From IMG/VR virus record IMGVR_UViG_3300023174_000442, positions 1-32,246 of that record: DNA of 32,246 bases; one strand, given 5' to 3'. The position numbers were made by a program, and so were the translations under genes. Shown piece by piece: positions 1,474 through 9,455 of this stretch; the first letter of the stretch is position 1; every line of letters starts with the position of its first letter. This DNA comes from a virus. Below the pieces are notes generated by a model. The model was not told the origin of the DNA. It did no database searches and saw only the letters and a program-made list of their open reading frames with translations.

Positions 1474-2085
1474 ATGAATCAAGCTGTTTTAAATAGAGCC
1501 AGAAACGATAAATTTTTATTGGTTTTGGATTTGCCAAAATTTTTTAAAGGTAAGTTTGATGTTTTATTAAGTGAAGATTTTCATCCAGATACAATACAAT
1601 ATACTTGTTATGGATCTCCGGTTCCTACTGTTAGTGTTCCGGCTATAGATGTTCCTTTCGGTGGACAGGTTTTAAAAACAACCTCAATATCAAGACCCTC
1701 TTATACCGGATTAAATGTTCCTTTTGTTGTTGATAATGGTTGGAAGAATTATTGGATTTTATGGAAATGGATAAATCTATTTAATGATCAAAAATCCGGT
1801 ATACCAGAATTTAATTATAAGACAAAGGATAATTCGGCTGGGATTGGTGCTATACAAAATACAATGTATGATTTTGTTACAACTGTTACAACCTATGCCC
1901 TAGACGAATATAATAATAAAGTAATAGGATTTAAATATCATCATGCTTTTCCTGTATCATTGTCAGATGTTAAATTATCACACCAAGATCCTTCTGAGAT
2001 TATTTGTAATGTAACCTTTTCATTTAACCAGATACATGCAAATTTATTAAAAAACGTGGATGATTCAACCTGTAATATATTATGA
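1474..2085 (+). CDS. Tail tube-like protein (T4 gp19/gp54 fold)
   Basis: 203 residues. The ladder of segments resembles T4 gp19, the inner tube of a contractile tail: an N-terminal beta region with FKGKFDVLLSED, a middle segment YWILWKWINLFNDQKSG comparable to the W/F-rich helix of gp19, and a C-terminal GFKYHHAFPVSLSDVKL followed by EIICNVTFSFNQIH, which matches the usual pattern of a strand, a Pro-x-x-(V/L)-x-(E/D)-(L/V) turn and a final strand. The same fold is used by baseplate tube initiators such as gp54 and gp48, so main tube versus initiator cannot be settled here. The adjacent hub gene favours a baseplate-proximal role. The start has an A/T leader and no Shine-Dalgarno, and the stop overlaps the next start in ATGA. 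Confidence 0.7.
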   Translation: MNQAVLNRARNDKFLLVLDLPKFFKGKFDVLLSEDFHPDTIQYTCYGSPVPTVSVPAIDVPFGGQVLKTTSISRPSYTGLNVPFVVDNGWKNYWILWKWINLFNDQKSGIPEFNYKTKDNSAGIGAIQNTMYDFVTTVTTYALDEYNNKVIGFKYHHAFPVSLSDVKLSHQDPSEIICNVTFSFNQIHANLLKNVDDSTCNIL

Positions 2086-3788
2086 TATTAGATATTACAT
2101 CATCAAATTTTATTAGAGATAAAGGATTTCTACATCAAATAGGCGATCAACAATATTATATTGAAATATATTTATATAATCAATTACCTGACACCGAACC
2201 GCTTGCTGTACGTTTCTTTTTTATCGATACTTTATGTATAGAAGAAAGTTTGATGGACTGGGCGGTTAAAGGATTTTTAATATTAAATAATGATTTTGAA
2301 ACTTTTGAAAGAAAATCAAAAGAAAATAATGATAAAGCTCCTTTTATTTTTAGAACCGATGGTCGAAATAAAATGAGTATAAATATATTACCTATAATTA
2401 AGGAGAATAGTAAAATTTCTTTATTTGATGGGTCTATTGATAAAACATCCGATGAATTTAAACAAAAATGGCAGATGTCTTTTGATTGTGTTATATACGA
2501 TATAGAAGATATAGACACCAAAGAAAACAAAGTAAAAAGAAGAAAATTGTATTTTTGTGATGAGCGATATCAAATTTTATCAGAGAAAAATCTAGAATGG
2601 TCAACCGCAAAGGAGGGTATGGCATATTCTCTTACAAGTATAGGTAAAGGATTTTTAAATGATCCTAATAGTACACAGATGCCTACAGATGATACTAGAA
2701 TGATTCCGGCTAATATTGCGATTCGATCCATTTTAGATACTGCCGGAAAAAATCCAGATGAATCTTATATTAACATAGGATTTGATGAAGGTGGAAATAT
2801 AAAAGAACCAAATAAAAAACTAAGCGATTGTGCTCTTCTTAATGTTACTGGTGGAAAGTGGGTTGGGGGTGATACAAGAAATAATATATTTTATACATCT
2901 CCTGCGATTTCTACTGCTTTGGAAGATTTGGAATATATGATACCTTATGCTGGAACCGATGAAGAAGGTCCGGTTTTTTTAAGAATTTCTAGAGTTCAAA
3001 AAGAAAAAGAATGGAGACTTGTATCTTTAAGAGAATTATTTTATAGATCTAAAGAAGAACAAGTCGAACGGTTATTTTTAAATGAGGTTGATTCGGGTGA
3101 TAGAATAGGGGATAAAAATAAACCTTATAGTCCAAGAGCATGGGCAGATGGTGGGAATGATATATTTAATTTTATTTCCGGAACCGGAAATAAAATTATT
3201 TCCTATCAATATTCTCCTATGGTTTCTTCGGATGATAAAAAAATAGTTAATAGTCCGGTTCATACTTATGATTTTAAAAACGGAATGTTTCACATCGTAT
3301 TCGGTGACAATACGGCTGAAGGTGTTGTAAGTAAAATGGAAAATTTAGCCGAGGCCGGACTTTATAATTTTGTAGAGAAACGAGATAAGGCGCAAATTTT
3401 ATTGAATCTAAATCAAACCAAAAAACAATCTGTTTCTATAGACAATGTTTTTTTACCGACTTATTTTAATACAGATGATCAAAGAAATGCTAATAATTTC
3501 TTTTCTTTTTATGCTAGAAATCAAATGATCAAAGATGCTTTATTTTTAAATGAGGCACTATCGTTTACGGTTAGAGGCTTGACCATTAGAGCACCGGGTA
3601 GGTTTATTTTCATAGATTCGATTGCTGGTGACGGTGATCCTGATCCATTTAGTGACAGATTTTTAGGACAATGGATGATAATTAAGGTTGTCCATACATT
3701 TAAACAAAATTCTTATTTTTCAAATGTAGTCAGTACTAAGGTTGATGCTCATTCAAAACTTTGGGAAAAGGAAGATACAAAATTTTAA
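2082..3788 (+). CDS. Baseplate hub protein, gp27-like
   Basis: 568 residues. The C-terminal part (about 473-552) has the signature of gp27/late-control-D hub proteins: a helix (FYARNQMIKDALFLNEALSF), a strand GLTIRAPGRFIFIDS meaning a loaded ring with a low-complexity turn, and LGQWMIIKVVHTFKQNSYFSNVV, which corresponds to the 'gives access to / x-V-x-H-x-F-x-x-x-x-Y' strand pair seen at the end of hub barrels. In T4, gp27 forms the trimeric hub that joins the tube to the gp5 spike. A gp5-like spike gene lies two plus-strand structural genes downstream, consistent with this role. The long N-terminal part is less recognisable. The start overlaps the previous stop by 4 bases (ATGA), indicating translational coupling. 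Confidence 0.7.
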   Translation: MILDITSSNFIRDKGFLHQIGDQQYYIEIYLYNQLPDTEPLAVRFFFIDTLCIEESLMDWAVKGFLILNNDFETFERKSKENNDKAPFIFRTDGRNKMSINILPIIKENSKISLFDGSIDKTSDEFKQKWQMSFDCVIYDIEDIDTKENKVKRRKLYFCDERYQILSEKNLEWSTAKEGMAYSLTSIGKGFLNDPNSTQMPTDDTRMIPANIAIRSILDTAGKNPDESYINIGFDEGGNIKEPNKKLSDCALLNVTGGKWVGGDTRNNIFYTSPAISTALEDLEYMIPYAGTDEEGPVFLRISRVQKEKEWRLVSLRELFYRSKEEQVERLFLNEVDSGDRIGDKNKPYSPRAWADGGNDIFNFISGTGNKIISYQYSPMVSSDDKKIVNSPVHTYDFKNGMFHIVFGDNTAEGVVSKMENLAEAGLYNFVEKRDKAQILLNLNQTKKQSVSIDNVFLPTYFNTDDQRNANNFFSFYARNQMIKDALFLNEALSFTVRGLTIRAPGRFIFIDSIAGDGDPDPFSDRFLGQWMIIKVVHTFKQNSYFSNVVSTKVDAHSKLWEKEDTKF

Positions 3789-3792
3789 AATT

Positions 3793-4113
3793 ATGAACAG
3801 AGAAGAATTAAAAAGTAAAATACAACAAGCATCTAAAATCAGAGAATTAGCCGGACAAAAAGTTCAGGCTCATAAACCACCACCTATGAGTCAAATGGTT
3901 CAAAATGTTGGTCAAAGTATTGTTAGAAATATTCATAGCGTTGCAACCGGAAATCCATTGAATGTTGATGAAAGTGAAAAATCCAGAAGATTATCTATAT
4001 GTAATTCTTGTGAATTTTATATAAAAGATCAAGAAAGATGTTCCAAATGTGGATGTTATATGGCTGTTAAAACTTATTTAAAGGCCGAAAAATGTCCGGT
4101 TGGAAAATGGTAG
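3793..4113 (+). CDS. Small zinc-finger protein with C-terminal CxxC...CxxC
   Basis: 106 residues from the ATG at 3793, 4 bases after the hub stop. An upstream in-frame start at 3742 would overlap the hub gene and adds residues that look non-native, so 3793 is preferred. The N-terminal half is basic, with Gln and Pro. The C-terminal half carries ICNSCEFY, then RCSKCGCYM, then EKCPVGKW, a treble-clef or ribbon-like Cys cluster that recurs in small proteins of T4-like and cyanophages (possibly DUF6171, from memory). The function is unknown; its position among baseplate genes suggests a virion or assembly role. Its last 40 bases overlap the convergent kinase gene on the other strand. Confidence 0.7.
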   Translation: MNREELKSKIQQASKIRELAGQKVQAHKPPPMSQMVQNVGQSIVRNIHSVATGNPLNVDESEKSRRLSICNSCEFYIKDQERCSKCGCYMAVKTYLKAEKCPVGKW

Positions 4114-4670
4114 AATTTTTCTGCTATTTTTTCAGCATATTGTAATAATTCTTGTTCAAAATTATTTTCAAATGTAGGAATTTTCAAATAAAAATTTGAA
4201 TTATTTCTTAAAATTTTGTTATGGTATTTTTCATGTTCATTTGCAGGATCAATACCATCTCGATCTAAAAATAAAAGAAATCCGTTTTTTTCATTTTTTA
4301 ACCAATATAATTCATCTTTAGGGTATTCGGTATATCTAATATCGGTTATAATATCTATAATGCCAGAATCTTCGAATTGGTCTATAAAATATCGTCCTTC
4401 TGATATTCTTCTCTTTAATAGTCCATATTCTACCATGAAGGGTCTAATTAATTTTTTTTCTTCTATAGTGGGATTTTCTATATCTATACTAAAATGATTT
4501 TTAGATATTTCTTTTAAGTTTTTTCTTATTGTATCTCCAGCCAAAGAACGTCTCACTGCTTTAATCTTAAACTTTTCATCGAAAGTTTTTATGAGTGCCT
4601 TGCAGAAAGAATCTTTTCCTACAAAGGCATTTCCGGCTATTCCTATTACCCCTTTAATATTTTGATCCAT
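4074..4670 (-). CDS. Deoxynucleoside monophosphate kinase-like P-loop kinase
   Basis: 198 residues. A P-loop GIAGNAFVGKDSF at residues 10-22 is followed by an RRSLAGDTIR segment and a late region IIDIITDIRYTEYP, which together resemble phage dNMP kinases (T4 gp1 family). These phosphorylate dNMPs to dNDPs to feed phage DNA synthesis. It is the only minus-strand gene inside the plus-strand virion module. It converges on the zinc-finger gene with a 40-base overlap and diverges from the next gene with 24 bases between start codons. That insertion-like placement suggests acquisition or relocation. Adenylate kinase-like activity is the main alternative, since substrate choice cannot be read from sequence. 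Confidence 0.75.
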   Translation of the reverse strand: MDQNIKGVIGIAGNAFVGKDSFCKALIKTFDEKFKIKAVRRSLAGDTIRKNLKEISKNHFSIDIENPTIEEKKLIRPFMVEYGLLKRRISEGRYFIDQFEDSGIIDIITDIRYTEYPKDELYWLKNEKNGFLLFLDRDGIDPANEHEKYHNKILRNNSNFYLKIPTFENNFEQELLQYAEKIAEKFYHFPTGHFSAFK

Positions 4671-4694
4671 CGGATAAATATTTTAACATATATT

Positions 4695-6071
4695 ATGGCG
4701 GATGCAACAACAATATGGAGATATAGAGAAATTAACGGTATAAATGATTTAGAAAAACAAAGTAATTTGTTGAACTCTGAAGAAGGTAAAAAAGCATTAC
4801 TAGAATTACAAAAAATAACCAGAGATCGTTTATGGATGTATAAAGCATATCTTTTTATGTTGGTAAAGGGCGTGGATAGTTTTAGTACTGTTGTAGAATA
4901 TAGAGATGCTGTAAAATTAAGAAAAGTTGCTATAAAAAAATCTTTATATCAAAGACTTATTCGATGGGCTAATGCTAAAAATGGAAAATTTGCTGCTTTT
5001 AAAAAAACTCCTGCTGGTTTATCAGGTGCTTTAGAAGATGTCGGGTCTGAAGGATTATTTGCTTCTCTATCTCAAATGTTACAAGAAAGTCCGGTTAAAG
5101 GATCAAAAAGAAATACACCTACTTTGATAGAACAAGCATTAAATAAAATACATCCCAAGTTTACAGAAACGGTTGAAAAATATTGTGTGCTAATTAAAAG
5201 CAGAGCATATCTTTCAATGCCTCCTATGGGTGTTGGTTCATTGCAAAAAGTAGTTGGTGCGATGAAAGGTATAATGAAAGCCTTTCAAGGTATTGTTTTT
5301 AATATTTACAAAGGAGCTATGAGAGCTATTCAACAATTTTATGCTTATATAAATGGAATTGTTTCTAAAATTCAAAAAATGTTGGTTAGTATAATCGAAC
5401 AAATTATTCCATTGGATTTGATTTGTTTAATTTTAGAAGCAATTCAAACTTTATTAGATGATGTAAATTTCTTTTCATCTATGTTTGGTGGTAAAGGTTC
5501 ATTTTTTCAATATTTAAATACCTTTCAAGGTTATATAAATGCTGCTTCAAATATGGTTAGAAATCCTTTTTCTATTTTAAAGGGTATGATTCCTCCAGAT
5601 ATTCAAAAAATAATAGATTTGGTTGATCAAGTTGGATCTGACCCTAATGGTTTTTTAACCGATCAATTAAATAATTATGGATACGGCTATGTTATGAGTG
5701 CATTACAAGGAAACTTTTATGGTGCTCTTGTTAGTAAATATGGCGGTAAATATCCAGCACTAAGAGCGGCTGACTATTTTGTGGGAAGAGCTGATGGTAT
5801 TGCTGGTGGGCTGGGTGTTTCTACTCCTAATCCTGCTTCTATGGGTCCAAATATACATCAAACCGCTGATGGTAAATTTGTAGATGATAATAACAATCCA
5901 GTAAATCCTGTAGAAATGAGTATTAAAAACTTTATTAATGTTACAGGTCAAGAATTAAACAAAACCGGATCAGCCTTAAAGAATTCTGTAAAACCAGTGA
6001 GCAATACATTAGGAAAGGTATTTAAAACTGATGCGTATATAAAAGCAAATTCAAGTATGGCGGACGATTAA
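4695..6071 (+). CDS. Unknown structural protein with long hydrophobic helices; possible tape-measure or hub-associated protein
   Basis: 458 residues from the ATG at 4695. A TTG start at 4662 is possible but would overlap the divergent kinase start. The N-terminal 180 residues are predicted helical and charged. Residues about 190-320 contain repeated apolar amphipathic stretches, such as VVGAMKGIMKAFQGIVFNIY and VSIIEQIIPLDLICLILEAI, and the C-terminal 120 residues are Gly/Asn/Pro-rich. Such hydrophobic blocks are common in tail tape-measure proteins and ejected proteins. The position between hub and spike genes also fits T4 gp28/gp29-type roles, but no family motif was recognised. The spike gene starts 3 bases downstream. 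Function is inference only. Confidence 0.75.
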   Translation: MADATTIWRYREINGINDLEKQSNLLNSEEGKKALLELQKITRDRLWMYKAYLFMLVKGVDSFSTVVEYRDAVKLRKVAIKKSLYQRLIRWANAKNGKFAAFKKTPAGLSGALEDVGSEGLFASLSQMLQESPVKGSKRNTPTLIEQALNKIHPKFTETVEKYCVLIKSRAYLSMPPMGVGSLQKVVGAMKGIMKAFQGIVFNIYKGAMRAIQQFYAYINGIVSKIQKMLVSIIEQIIPLDLICLILEAIQTLLDDVNFFSSMFGGKGSFFQYLNTFQGYINAASNMVRNPFSILKGMIPPDIQKIIDLVDQVGSDPNGFLTDQLNNYGYGYVMSALQGNFYGALVSKYGGKYPALRAADYFVGRADGIAGGLGVSTPNPASMGPNIHQTADGKFVDDNNNPVNPVEMSIKNFINVTGQELNKTGSALKNSVKPVSNTLGKVFKTDAYIKANSSMADD

Positions 6072-6074
6072 TAT

Positions 6075-9000
6075 ATGAAAAAAAAATTATACGGAAATTA
6101 TTTAGGTATAGTAATAACAGGAGCCGAGCACGATCCAGAATTTAGAGGAAGATGTCAGATATTTTTTCCCGGTGTGTCGAATACTCTATATAAAAAAATT
6201 AATAAAAATTTAAAGGATTTAAGTTTTGGGCATATCGATCCTAATGTTTTTACGCCAGATATAATAAAAGATTTAAGAGAAGTTCTTCCGTGGGCTGAAT
6301 GTGCTGCTCCTGTTGTTGGAACTGCTACTAGTGCTTATCATAATCAAAATACTGGTACTACCGCATTAACTCCCGATCATACTAAAAATCCCGATAATCC
6401 CTCTGCTGGATATCCACCGGAACAACCTTTACCCAATCCGGCAGATTCTAGTGATCCTGTAGATGATATCGAAGGAACAAAACAAAATTTTCAATCTATA
6501 CAATCGGGTTCATCTAATAATAAATTAGCTGAAGATAGACAAAAATATTTTTTTAATGAATTATCAAAAGACCCATCTTTGATAAATTCTTTATACGAAA
6601 GAGCCGTAAATGAAGTTGGCAATGATCCAAGAAATCAACAAACTTGGATGGAAACTGTTGCGAATAGAGCAATGTTTGGAGGAACGTCACTTGAAAAAGT
6701 GGTTCAAAAACAGTTTATTCCTATCCAAAATGGTGGATATTATCCAACAAGTTCCTTTAAAAGTGTAGGTTCCCCGAATGCAGGGTTTCAAAATTCTTTT
6801 AATGAGGTTTTTGTTAAAGGGAGCAATATAACAAATTTAGCAACTGATAATGCATCAAATCAAGCGGGTAATCCGGTTGCCGATAGAAGAATTGCTGCTG
6901 GTGTTACTGGAAATTGGTATAAAAATGGTCAGATTGTGGCACAAGGTACAAGAGGAGCGGAATTTTTATATAGATCTGATGCCGCAAAAACTTATCGAAC
7001 TGCTTCAGGTGTAAAAGCTTCAGAATATGCTAAAAATAATAATATAGAAATATCTCCAATGAATCCCGAAGTAGCTTCGGCTAATCCAGAACCTAATAAT
7101 GGAGCTAATTCGCCCTCTATTCCTTATGCTAACTATGGACCAAAACCAATAGGACTTTTTTCTTGTCCTGCTATGGGTGCTAAATTGTGGGCATTTTTTT
7201 ATGGAGGGGAAATACAACGACCTGTATATTTTGCATGTGTCCAAGATTCATGGGGAATATATAATCAAAATGCATCAGAGGGACCGAAAAATACAAGTCC
7301 ATTACCTGCTTCTTTTTCTGATATGTCTACAACGCCTTCGCAATTTACTAGTACTACCGGAATAGTTACTAATTTTGCAGGTATGGAATTTAGCGGATCA
7401 TCTATAACTAATAAAGGAGAACTGCCTTTAAATTCTTCTAGTGCTCAATTTTATAATGCCGCTGGAGCTAAATTATCGATGATAGATAATAATATAACTA
7501 TCGGTACTGTTGATAATGCAGCAGGTATCGGTATAAATGATGAGGGTTCTTCTTTTTACAATCAACGCCGTATAACTTTAACTGCATCAGAAATAGTTTT
7601 AAACGGGAATGTCAAAACGGTTTCCGGTGTTGATCAAAAAGATCAAAAAAAATCTGATGACTATTTAAAAAAAGAACAATCCGCTGTAAACGAAATAGCA
7701 AATCAACAGGCGAGTGATATATCTAAAGGGGGAGAAGAAATAAATTGTCCTATATGTGAACAAAAATTAGCGGATGATAAATCGGATTTTGTTCAAAGAA
7801 TATTAAGAACTATTAGAAAATTTTCTAATATTTTACCATGGGATTGTTGGAATTGGGGCGTAACTAAATTTTTAATAAATTTTATAGTAACACCGATGCT
7901 AAGTGAAATTAGTGCATTAGCTGTATCGGGAGGAGAAGGATGTGGTATGTGTAATAAAGGAAAGGTTAAATCTTATTCACAAACCATAGAAAATTCTAAT
8001 AAAAAATCAGCCGAAACCTTTGCACAAAAACAAAATGAAATAAACGAAAGCGCAAAAAATCATAAACCCGGTTCAAACGTACAAACAGTTAAGGGTTCTT
8101 ACGGAATTGATGCTGGCGGTGATCAGACTAATAATGCTAAGGTAGCACAGCAATTAAAAGATGATTGTAGTGTTATACCTACAGGTCTTAAAAAGGGAAC
8201 TGGTGCTAAAGCAAATCCTCTTCATCCATCGGGAGAAAAGGTAGAAACTGTTGTTTTTATGCCTCCCAATAAAACATCTGCTGGTGATATATTTTTTAGA
8301 GCCGCAAATGACATTAAAATGATAGCTGGATCACCGGGTATTTCGATGGAAACCAACGGAAAAATATCTATTACTGGCGGATTTTTGGATTTGAATTCTA
8401 TGGATGGTCCAGCGATTTTAACATCTAAAAATGTTACAAATGTAAACGGCGCAAAGGTTCATATAACAGGGGCAAAGGGTATTGGATTAACAGCACCAAA
8501 TGTAGGTGTAAATGGAAATTTAGGTGTGACCGGAAATTTAGGAGTCAAAGGGTCTGTTACGATAGACGGTGCATTATCAGTAAAACACCTCAAGATTAAA
8601 ACAATGAGATCTGAAACAACTTCTAATTCTTCTCCAAAATCAACCTCAAATTCAACAACATATTATACGGGTGGAGCGGCTGGTATTAATATATTCGATA
8701 AGATTAAAAATTTATTGGTTCGTGACAATCCATTAAAAATGTTGATGCTTACCCCTAAAGGACTGTTAACAATATTCCAAGAAGTTTATGATAGAGTTTT
8801 ATTAATGATAGGTATTCATCCTGTGCCTACAGGAATATTTGTTAGTTATACTGGAACTGGTGTTGTTTATAACTTTACATCAAATTCTTCCAAGGTTCCT
8901 GATGATCATTCTCATCAATTTGATGCACCACAAATGACCAGAGCGGCTGATAATGCAGCTTGGGTCAATATGGCTGATGACCCTAGTTCAGAAGCACCTA

Positions 9001-9455
9001 ATCCAGCACCATCTCAAGGAGACGATCCTGTGGGTGGTCCTCATTCATTAGCTGGTTGCGGTGGCGGTGGATTTGGTTTCAGCACAGGTTCAAACGCATC
9101 TAGAAGAAGAACCGCAAGAAATTCTAGATATGGTGTTCCTTCAAATAGTTTAAATTATGGCAGAATAATACCAGAAGGATATTATAATAACACTATAATA
9201 ACAACTACCAATACAAACCTAACCGGAGTTTCTGGTGATTTTATTACTGTTACAAATGATCTATCGGGAAATCAAATAACAATATATACCGATATATCCG
9301 GAAATCAATTTACTATTGGTGACGGCCTTACCGGAACCAATATCACGATTGATTATGATATTACACCGAATAGTCAAATATGGAAATATGATGAAAACGG
9401 CGAAATATCTCCTAGAGATTTAGTCCGATTTACACTAAGCGAAGAATGTAATTAA
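6075..9455 (+). CDS. Baseplate central spike, gp5-like, with lysozyme-like domain inserted in the OB fold
   Basis: 1126 residues, about twice T4 gp5. N-terminal OB-fold strands (YLGIVITGAEHDPEFRGRCQ, residues 9-28, and LPWAECAAPVVG, 71-82) are completed only at 355-395 by PIGLFSCPAMGAKLWAFFYG and RPVYFACV. Between them, about 150-320, lies a putative wall hydrolase resembling SleB-type enzymes: AVNEVGNDP with candidate catalytic Glu180, VANRAMFGG and KQF. Residues 558-561 (CPIC) and 623-626 (CGMC) form a split CxxC pair that could bind zinc. Residues about 740-840 are short Gly/Asn-spaced strands typical of the triple-stranded beta-helix of spikes. An HSH motif at 945-947 recalls metal-binding spike tips. 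It probably pierces the outer membrane and cuts peptidoglycan. The gene ends just before a strong terminator. Confidence 0.85.
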   Translation: MKKKLYGNYLGIVITGAEHDPEFRGRCQIFFPGVSNTLYKKINKNLKDLSFGHIDPNVFTPDIIKDLREVLPWAECAAPVVGTATSAYHNQNTGTTALTPDHTKNPDNPSAGYPPEQPLPNPADSSDPVDDIEGTKQNFQSIQSGSSNNKLAEDRQKYFFNELSKDPSLINSLYERAVNEVGNDPRNQQTWMETVANRAMFGGTSLEKVVQKQFIPIQNGGYYPTSSFKSVGSPNAGFQNSFNEVFVKGSNITNLATDNASNQAGNPVADRRIAAGVTGNWYKNGQIVAQGTRGAEFLYRSDAAKTYRTASGVKASEYAKNNNIEISPMNPEVASANPEPNNGANSPSIPYANYGPKPIGLFSCPAMGAKLWAFFYGGEIQRPVYFACVQDSWGIYNQNASEGPKNTSPLPASFSDMSTTPSQFTSTTGIVTNFAGMEFSGSSITNKGELPLNSSSAQFYNAAGAKLSMIDNNITIGTVDNAAGIGINDEGSSFYNQRRITLTASEIVLNGNVKTVSGVDQKDQKKSDDYLKKEQSAVNEIANQQASDISKGGEEINCPICEQKLADDKSDFVQRILRTIRKFSNILPWDCWNWGVTKFLINFIVTPMLSEISALAVSGGEGCGMCNKGKVKSYSQTIENSNKKSAETFAQKQNEINESAKNHKPGSNVQTVKGSYGIDAGGDQTNNAKVAQQLKDDCSVIPTGLKKGTGAKANPLHPSGEKVETVVFMPPNKTSAGDIFFRAANDIKMIAGSPGISMETNGKISITGGFLDLNSMDGPAILTSKNVTNVNGAKVHITGAKGIGLTAPNVGVNGNLGVTGNLGVKGSVTIDGALSVKHLKIKTMRSETTSNSSPKSTSNSTTYYTGGAAGINIFDKIKNLLVRDNPLKMLMLTPKGLLTIFQEVYDRVLLMIGIHPVPTGIFVSYTGTGVVYNFTSNSSKVPDDHSHQFDAPQMTRAADNAAWVNMADDPSSEAPNPAPSQGDDPVGGPHSLAGCGGGGFGFSTGSNASRRRTARNSRYGVPSNSLNYGRIIPEGYYNNTIITTTNTNLTGVSGDFITVTNDLSGNQITIYTDISGNQFTIGDGLTGTNITIDYDITPNSQIWKYDENGEISPRDLVRFTLSEECN

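Follow-up and report, generated by a model that had tools for sequence, protein, structure and literature searches.

A gene for a central spike of the gp5/VgrG type lies at positions 6,075 to 9,455 of the 32,246-base IMG/VR virus record IMGVR_UViG_3300023174_000442, which may itself be a fragment and is referred to here, at its full length, as the window (Table 1). In the textbook puncturing device of contractile phages, an oligonucleotide/oligosaccharide-binding (OB) domain is followed by a lysozyme and then by a needle. In the window spike, the OB domain is split: its halves, recognisable at residues 6-34 (YGNYLGIVITGAEHDPEFRGRCQIFFPGV), 71-79 (LPWAECAAP) and 358-390 (IGLFSCPAMGAKLWAFFYGGEIQRPVYFACVQ), are kept apart by about 270 residues, comprising two proline-rich linkers and a domain between them. 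Two full-length homologs of the spike were obtained from IMG/VR (L001 and L002), and the FQSIQ sequence immediately preceding the insert is shared by all three proteins. The whole spike has no relative in a tblastn search of 50,697 phage records, nor were spikes of the types represented by L123 and L156 (see below) found there.

The inserted domain belongs to a family of its own. A degenerate pattern, GSN[IV][ST]NxAT[GD]N[AE]S, modelled on a phage motif and confirmed beforehand to occur in the window, retrieved 61 IMG/VR loci whose open reading frames (ORFs) encode one domain of about 150 residues. Glu180, Glu193, Asn197, Arg198 and Tyr222 of the window spike, all outside the motif used for collection, are invariant in the 36 members that were aligned. 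A hidden Markov model (HMM) built from 34 members, with the window left out, gave the window 78.2 bits (E=4e-23), whereas the highest score among 1000 shuffled versions of the insert was 11.1 bits; it also identified the domain in the same OB loop of the spike on an unrelated contig, L128 (E=2.8e-22). Searches of Pfam, NCBIfam, PHROGs and PDB sequences with the insert returned nothing credible (faint similarity to colicin E7 among PDB sequences was put down to chance), with no match to lysozyme families in Pfam at E<=10 or in NCBIfam; 35 family members scanned in Pfam gave no credible match. No relative of the insert was found by tblastn in the 50,697 phage records, no related loci appeared in viral and genome contigs, and tblastn with a guessed family consensus found none. 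The EVG/NR/GSN domain (L023-L083) is a widespread virion-associated family lacking a Pfam model. Outside spikes, it forms the C-terminal domain of hub-like proteins (L037, L051, L066) and lies within tape-measure-like proteins (L041, L043, L062), labels assigned by reading except for L062, which has PHROG tape-measure matches. Hub and tape-measure proteins are the usual carriers of virion lysins, and the distribution of the domain therefore fits a role in entry.

An earlier note on this DNA, made from the sequence alone, had pointed to a SleB-like pattern in the insert, consisting of NEVG with Glu180, ANR and KQF. The first two elements are in place: Glu180 and the Asn-Arg pair of ANR (196-198) are invariant in all aligned members and align with the invariant columns of SleB. 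KQF (212-214), by contrast, falls in a small stretch specific to the window and is not conserved in the family; it is therefore not the QF motif of SleB, which is absent after the NR helix of the insert. The structure of the spike was predicted with AlphaFold2 (AF2) from an alignment of 51 rows, as one of 5 rows gave a mean predicted local distance difference test (pLDDT) score of only 34.5. Many row sets were tried, mixed sets misplaced rows, and the choice was made by motif register alone before any structure was seen. In the model, the core of the insert (residues 150-255) is helical, mostly with pLDDT >90; Glu180 ends one helix, and Asn197-Arg198 lies near the end of the next. Among 39 Foldseek candidates aligned with VIA, the top two matches of the insert are the catalytic domains of SleB, 4fet_A (Z 7.6) and 4f55 (Z 7.5), over 102-104 residues at a root-mean-square deviation (rmsd) of 4.2, which agrees with the hydrolase-like character that the note had expected. 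The top two matches in BFVD, both annotated 'Cell Wall Hydrolase', are not significant (E 0.14, prob 0.72; E 0.33, prob 0.60). A SleB-like fold of the insert core is thus supported by the model, but not proven.

Several results weigh against this assignment. The SleB profile PF07486 matches neither the window record at E<=10 nor any of the 35 family members, and an HMM built from phage SleB proteins scores the insert no better than shuffles. A profile comparison (hhalign) of the insert family with phage SleB proteins is weak (prob 9.3%, P=0.0035), with the Glu and NR positions in register. By sequence, membership in SleB is not supported. The search against hydrolase families which the note had called for gave no match by sequence; among solved structures, the predicted fold is closest to SleB. 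Foldseek alone found no significant match for the model in the PDB, and the VIA Z of 7.6 is below 8, under the level that the tool calls safe.

The SleB/CwlJ lytic transglycosylases (Hydrolase_2, PF07486; 4FET, 4F55) are similar to the insert in predicted fold, in their helical core and in the order of Glu and NR, but the insert matches no PF07486, lacks QF and has motifs of its own, GSN[IV][ST]NxAT[GD]N[AE]S and YY. SleB requires its catalytic Glu to act as a lytic transglycosylase (PMC12331253). SleB and CwlJ are spore germination enzymes, whereas members of the insert family are phage virion proteins. A hand-written SleB consensus found many SleB proteins in phages, and those that were opened are encoded by separate small genes. 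The insert might have kept a SleB- or lysozyme-like fold while serving as a binding or decoration domain that recognises peptidoglycan or glycan. Its distance from PF07486, the missing QF motif and an enzymatic role that is so far a prediction are all in keeping with such a domain, but the five residues conserved without exception among highly diverged members have the pattern of an active site, and further members of the family occur in hub-like and tape-measure-like proteins, a usual setting for lytic domains. We consider a purely binding function unlikely, and the insert is treated below as a putative lytic domain.

That this domain lies inside the OB domain, and not between two domains, follows from homologs. 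PF04717, the OB profile of gp5/VgrG-type spikes, matches insertless spikes in one piece (L093 and L090, profile positions 1-72 and 1-70). In the more distant L123 and L128, its match exceeds the cut-off but is divided into two segments (E=5.7e-12 and 1.9e-12), with about 105 and 421 residues, respectively, separating the OB motifs. Closer to the window, residues 343-384 of L002, which is 66% identical to the window spike in the best segment, match profile positions 34-75 with E=4.6e-4 and 20.9 bits, just below the 23.8-bit cut-off. The AF2 model has OB strands at residues 8-15, 28-30, 370-375 and 383-388, both linkers being unstructured, and it does not show a complete OB fold before residue 150; homologs and model therefore agree with the insert of about 270 residues between OB halves that had been read from the sequence. 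The insertion site is most likely between OB strands 3 and 4, as numbered from the profile. It could be argued that the N-terminus does not hold half of an OB domain at all, that a full OB domain follows the insert and that nothing is inserted in the barrel. The window ORF alone indeed has no PF04717 match in Pfam, and the OB strands are modelled with no more than moderate confidence (pLDDT about 55-65), both of which count against a split barrel. Such a tandem of complete domains is nevertheless very improbable: insertless homologs hold the two halves contiguously as one PF04717 domain, the short spike P0003 of an Alishewanella phage joins both halves by a short loop, and model residues 2-389 map onto residues 371-451 of 7aef_q, a chain of the Algoriphagus contractile injection system, with both halves on one contiguous OB domain. 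This match ranks third in VIA (Z 5.5, rmsd 3.1, 65 residues), followed by an unrelated row at Z 2.3, and comes from the very model that yields the SleB matches.

Table 1. Location of the spike gene, its parts and the tail tube gene in the window.
Feature	Position	Strand	Remarks
Tail tube protein gene	1474..2085	+	phrog_45, E=1.8e-16; upstream of the spike gene, which it places in a tail cluster
Central spike gene, gp5/VgrG type	6075..9455	+	1126 aa; ATG start, stop 9453-9455; full-length homologs L001, L002
OB domain, N-terminal half (residues 4-82, up to LPWAECAAPVVG)	6084..6320	+	Residues 1-84 95% (L001) and 85% (L002) identical
Pro-rich linker 1 (residues 83-143, ending FQSIQ)	6321..6503	+	14.8% Pro; low pLDDT at residues 70-130
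Inserted domain, SleB-like by prediction (residues 144-325, ~180 aa; helical core 150-255)	6504..7049	+	Core pLDDT >90; VIA Z 7.6 to 4fet_A; family HMM E=4e-23
Glu180, proposed catalytic acid	6612..6614	+	Invariant 36/36; aligned with invariant Glu column of phage SleB proteins
Glu193, second invariant acidic residue	6651..6653	+	Invariant 36/36
Asn197-Arg198 motif	6663..6668	+	Invariant 36/36; aligned with SleB NR motif
GSNITNxATDNAS motif, used for family collection	6819..6856	+	One exact match in the window, 0/100 shuffles
Pro-rich linker 2 (residues 326-354)	7050..7136	+	20.7% Pro; low pLDDT
OB domain, C-terminal half (residues 355-395)	7137..7259	+	91% identical in L001
Rest of spike (residues 396-1126), repetitive	7260..9452	+	C-terminal part strongly conserved; 73% identity to L001 and L002 over aligned columns

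The insert has been replaced among close relatives. The window spike is 86% identical to L001 before the insert and 91% after it, and 66% and 56% identical to L002, but the insert cores of the three proteins align no better than shuffled sequences (z 1.0, 0.0, 0.1; blastp E 1.7-4.2). A blastp match between the inserts of the window and L001 (E=2.8e-19) was discarded, being due to the shared linkers; the cores alone give E=2.0. At the nucleotide level, identity to L001 drops from 78-95% to 23-57% across residues 141-320 before recovering to 93% at residues 361-380. The insert does not stand out in its G+C content at third codon positions (GC3), which is 0.159 against 0.131-0.207 in its flanks.

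Loop lengths were taken from a pattern scan of IMG/VR, counting non-redundant OB loci among the matches listed (at least 119 stretches). Among these matches, insertless spikes have a loop of 15-16 residues, many others one of 83-133, and L120, L128, L156, L194 (the same gene as L001) and L200 one of 258-421. Large inserts at the site used in the window occur also in L120, L156, L173 and L200. Eight large inserts examined with BLAST and the family HMM fall into six types, namely window/L128, L120/L173 and four singletons, and by these comparisons there are at least six unrelated types of large insert in this OB loop across IMG/VR spikes. By eye, the inserts of L002 (QQESTHNIYAVGDGGESYGPGQF) and L156 look like transglycosylases, and that of L200 looks as if it had an RlpA/3D-like stretch. 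Since relatives carry unrelated domains in one loop, the loop looks like an exchangeable socket. That the insert arose as a chimera in assembly, or was acquired just once and has no general meaning, as might be thought from an exact arrangement seen in one window only and from the different inserts of L001 and L002, is hardly credible given a reading frame open throughout, GC3 like that of the flanks, linkers and FQSIQ common to L001 and L002, other large inserts at the same site in four further spikes and, decisive in practice, the same domain in the same loop of the distant spike L128.

Two further observations concern this loop. In L128, a stretch labelled peptidase-like by eye (QHLFGKATDG ... 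NFHLDVGD; positions 5273-6850, minus strand) precedes the SleB-like domain, and a single loop may carry two enzymes there. In many T4-related spikes (L098, L103, L107, L113, L114, L117, L123, L135, L162, L183, L201, L202), the same loop carries about 85-130 extra residues that look non-enzymatic, of the IGEKPGNKYDIDFYRLNDAF type in most of these spikes.

Taken together, the split OB homology, the insert family with its invariant residues, the predicted core fold and the replacement of the insert in close relatives lead us to propose, as the probable arrangement, a trimeric central spike in which a SleB-like lytic domain is tethered in a loop of the OB barrel and can be exchanged. The gene product would be the central spike of a contractile-tailed, T4-related phage, with the peptidoglycan lytic domain held on two flexible proline-rich linkers in the OB loop (most likely from strand 3 to strand 4), so that three copies would project outward around the base of the needle. 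On sheath contraction, the spike would pass through the outer membrane, and the tethered domains could then cut the glycan strands of peptidoglycan beside the tip of the tube, with Glu180 as the putative catalytic acid/base. Because both ends of the enzyme return to one barrel, one cleavage of the T4 kind, between lysozyme and needle, would leave both ends attached; held by the barrel at both ends, the domain should act while attached. Recombination in the conserved flanks would replace one lytic domain by another, leaving barrel and needle unchanged. It is tempting to extend this further: with odds somewhat better than even, the OB loop of contractile-tail spikes may be a general socket served by recombination. 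Across a large group of uncultivated T4-related phages, mutually unrelated domains that cut the wall (at least six insert types, their enzymatic nature presumed) would then be swapped in and out of the barrel with the rest of the spike unaltered, retuning entry to the wall of the host.

In phage T4, to which the window phage is related, the single polypeptide gp5 likewise unites an OB domain and a lytic domain with a C-terminal needle. As the earlier note had remarked, the layout differs: the T4 lysozyme follows the OB domain, whereas the lytic domain of the window lies within an OB domain that is split in homologs and model, and is SleB-like rather than a T4-type lysozyme. T4 lysozyme becomes fully active once the needle dissociates, and its linker to the needle is cleaved (PMC3004832). 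In cyanophage A-1(L), the hub protein gp15 carries a lysozyme (56-265), an endoglucanase (266-430) and a peptidase (736-899), two of these domains having been tested and found active (PMC10966104). There too, several lytic domains have been added to a conserved baseplate barrel (PMC10966104), but that of the hub and not the OB barrel of the spike. The diffocin hub-hydrolase CD1368 is a virion lytic transglycosylase carried at the hub (PMC11329794), fused C-terminally to a gp27-like hub via a flexible loop and not inserted in a domain loop; L037 and L051 of the insert family show such a hub-like C-terminal arrangement. The gp5 of Pelagibacter phage HTVC008M and the spike of Alishewanella phage Slicko01 have the same kind of N-terminal OB domain, but with a short loop at the site and no lytic domain in the spike. 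None of the open-access papers searched describes a lytic domain within the OB loop of a spike; the search was incomplete, with most subscription journals outside it. The window spike is a real new topology of a known machine.

This topology changes the textbook order of the puncturing device and identifies a site in the OB barrel where foreign domains of 180 to about 400 residues are tolerated, as well as a widespread virion-associated family without a Pfam model. A natural series is available at one site, from insertless spikes through extensions of about 85-130 residues to large inserts including putative lytic domains. It becomes testable whether spike lysins depend on cleavage for their release or exposure, as has been proposed for T4, and whether swapping serves to fit the lytic domain to the host wall.

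The remainder of the spike, residues 396-1126, is repetitive and rich in N, Q, S, T and G, and presumably forms the needle. The distal part (window positions 7755-9000, residues ~561-975) has one stretch rich in Cys (CPICEQKL ... DCWNWG ... GEGCGMC) and another that is hydrophobic, INIFDKIKNLLVRDNPLKMLMLTPKGLLTIFQEVYDRVLLMIGIHPVPTG, both mostly conserved in the window, L001 and L002 and unexpected for a plain beta-helix needle.

The window encodes a DNA polymerase (phrog_262, E=4e-174) with best matches in cyanophages and Pelagibacter phage HTVC008M at only ~29-32% identity, a terminase, a DnaB-like helicase, a UvsX-like recombinase and a single-stranded DNA-binding protein. Judging from these genes and the tail tube gene, the phage is T4-related and contractile-tailed. 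The spike gene is located among tail genes, with the tail tube gene and a tape-measure-like ORF (4662-6071; phrog_1272, E=3.7e-5) upstream. Antisense inside this tail cluster, between ORFs 2082-3788 and 4662-6071, lies a deoxynucleoside-monophosphate-kinase-like gene (4074-4670, minus strand; phrog_139, E=3.9e-8), an arrangement common to L001 and L002.
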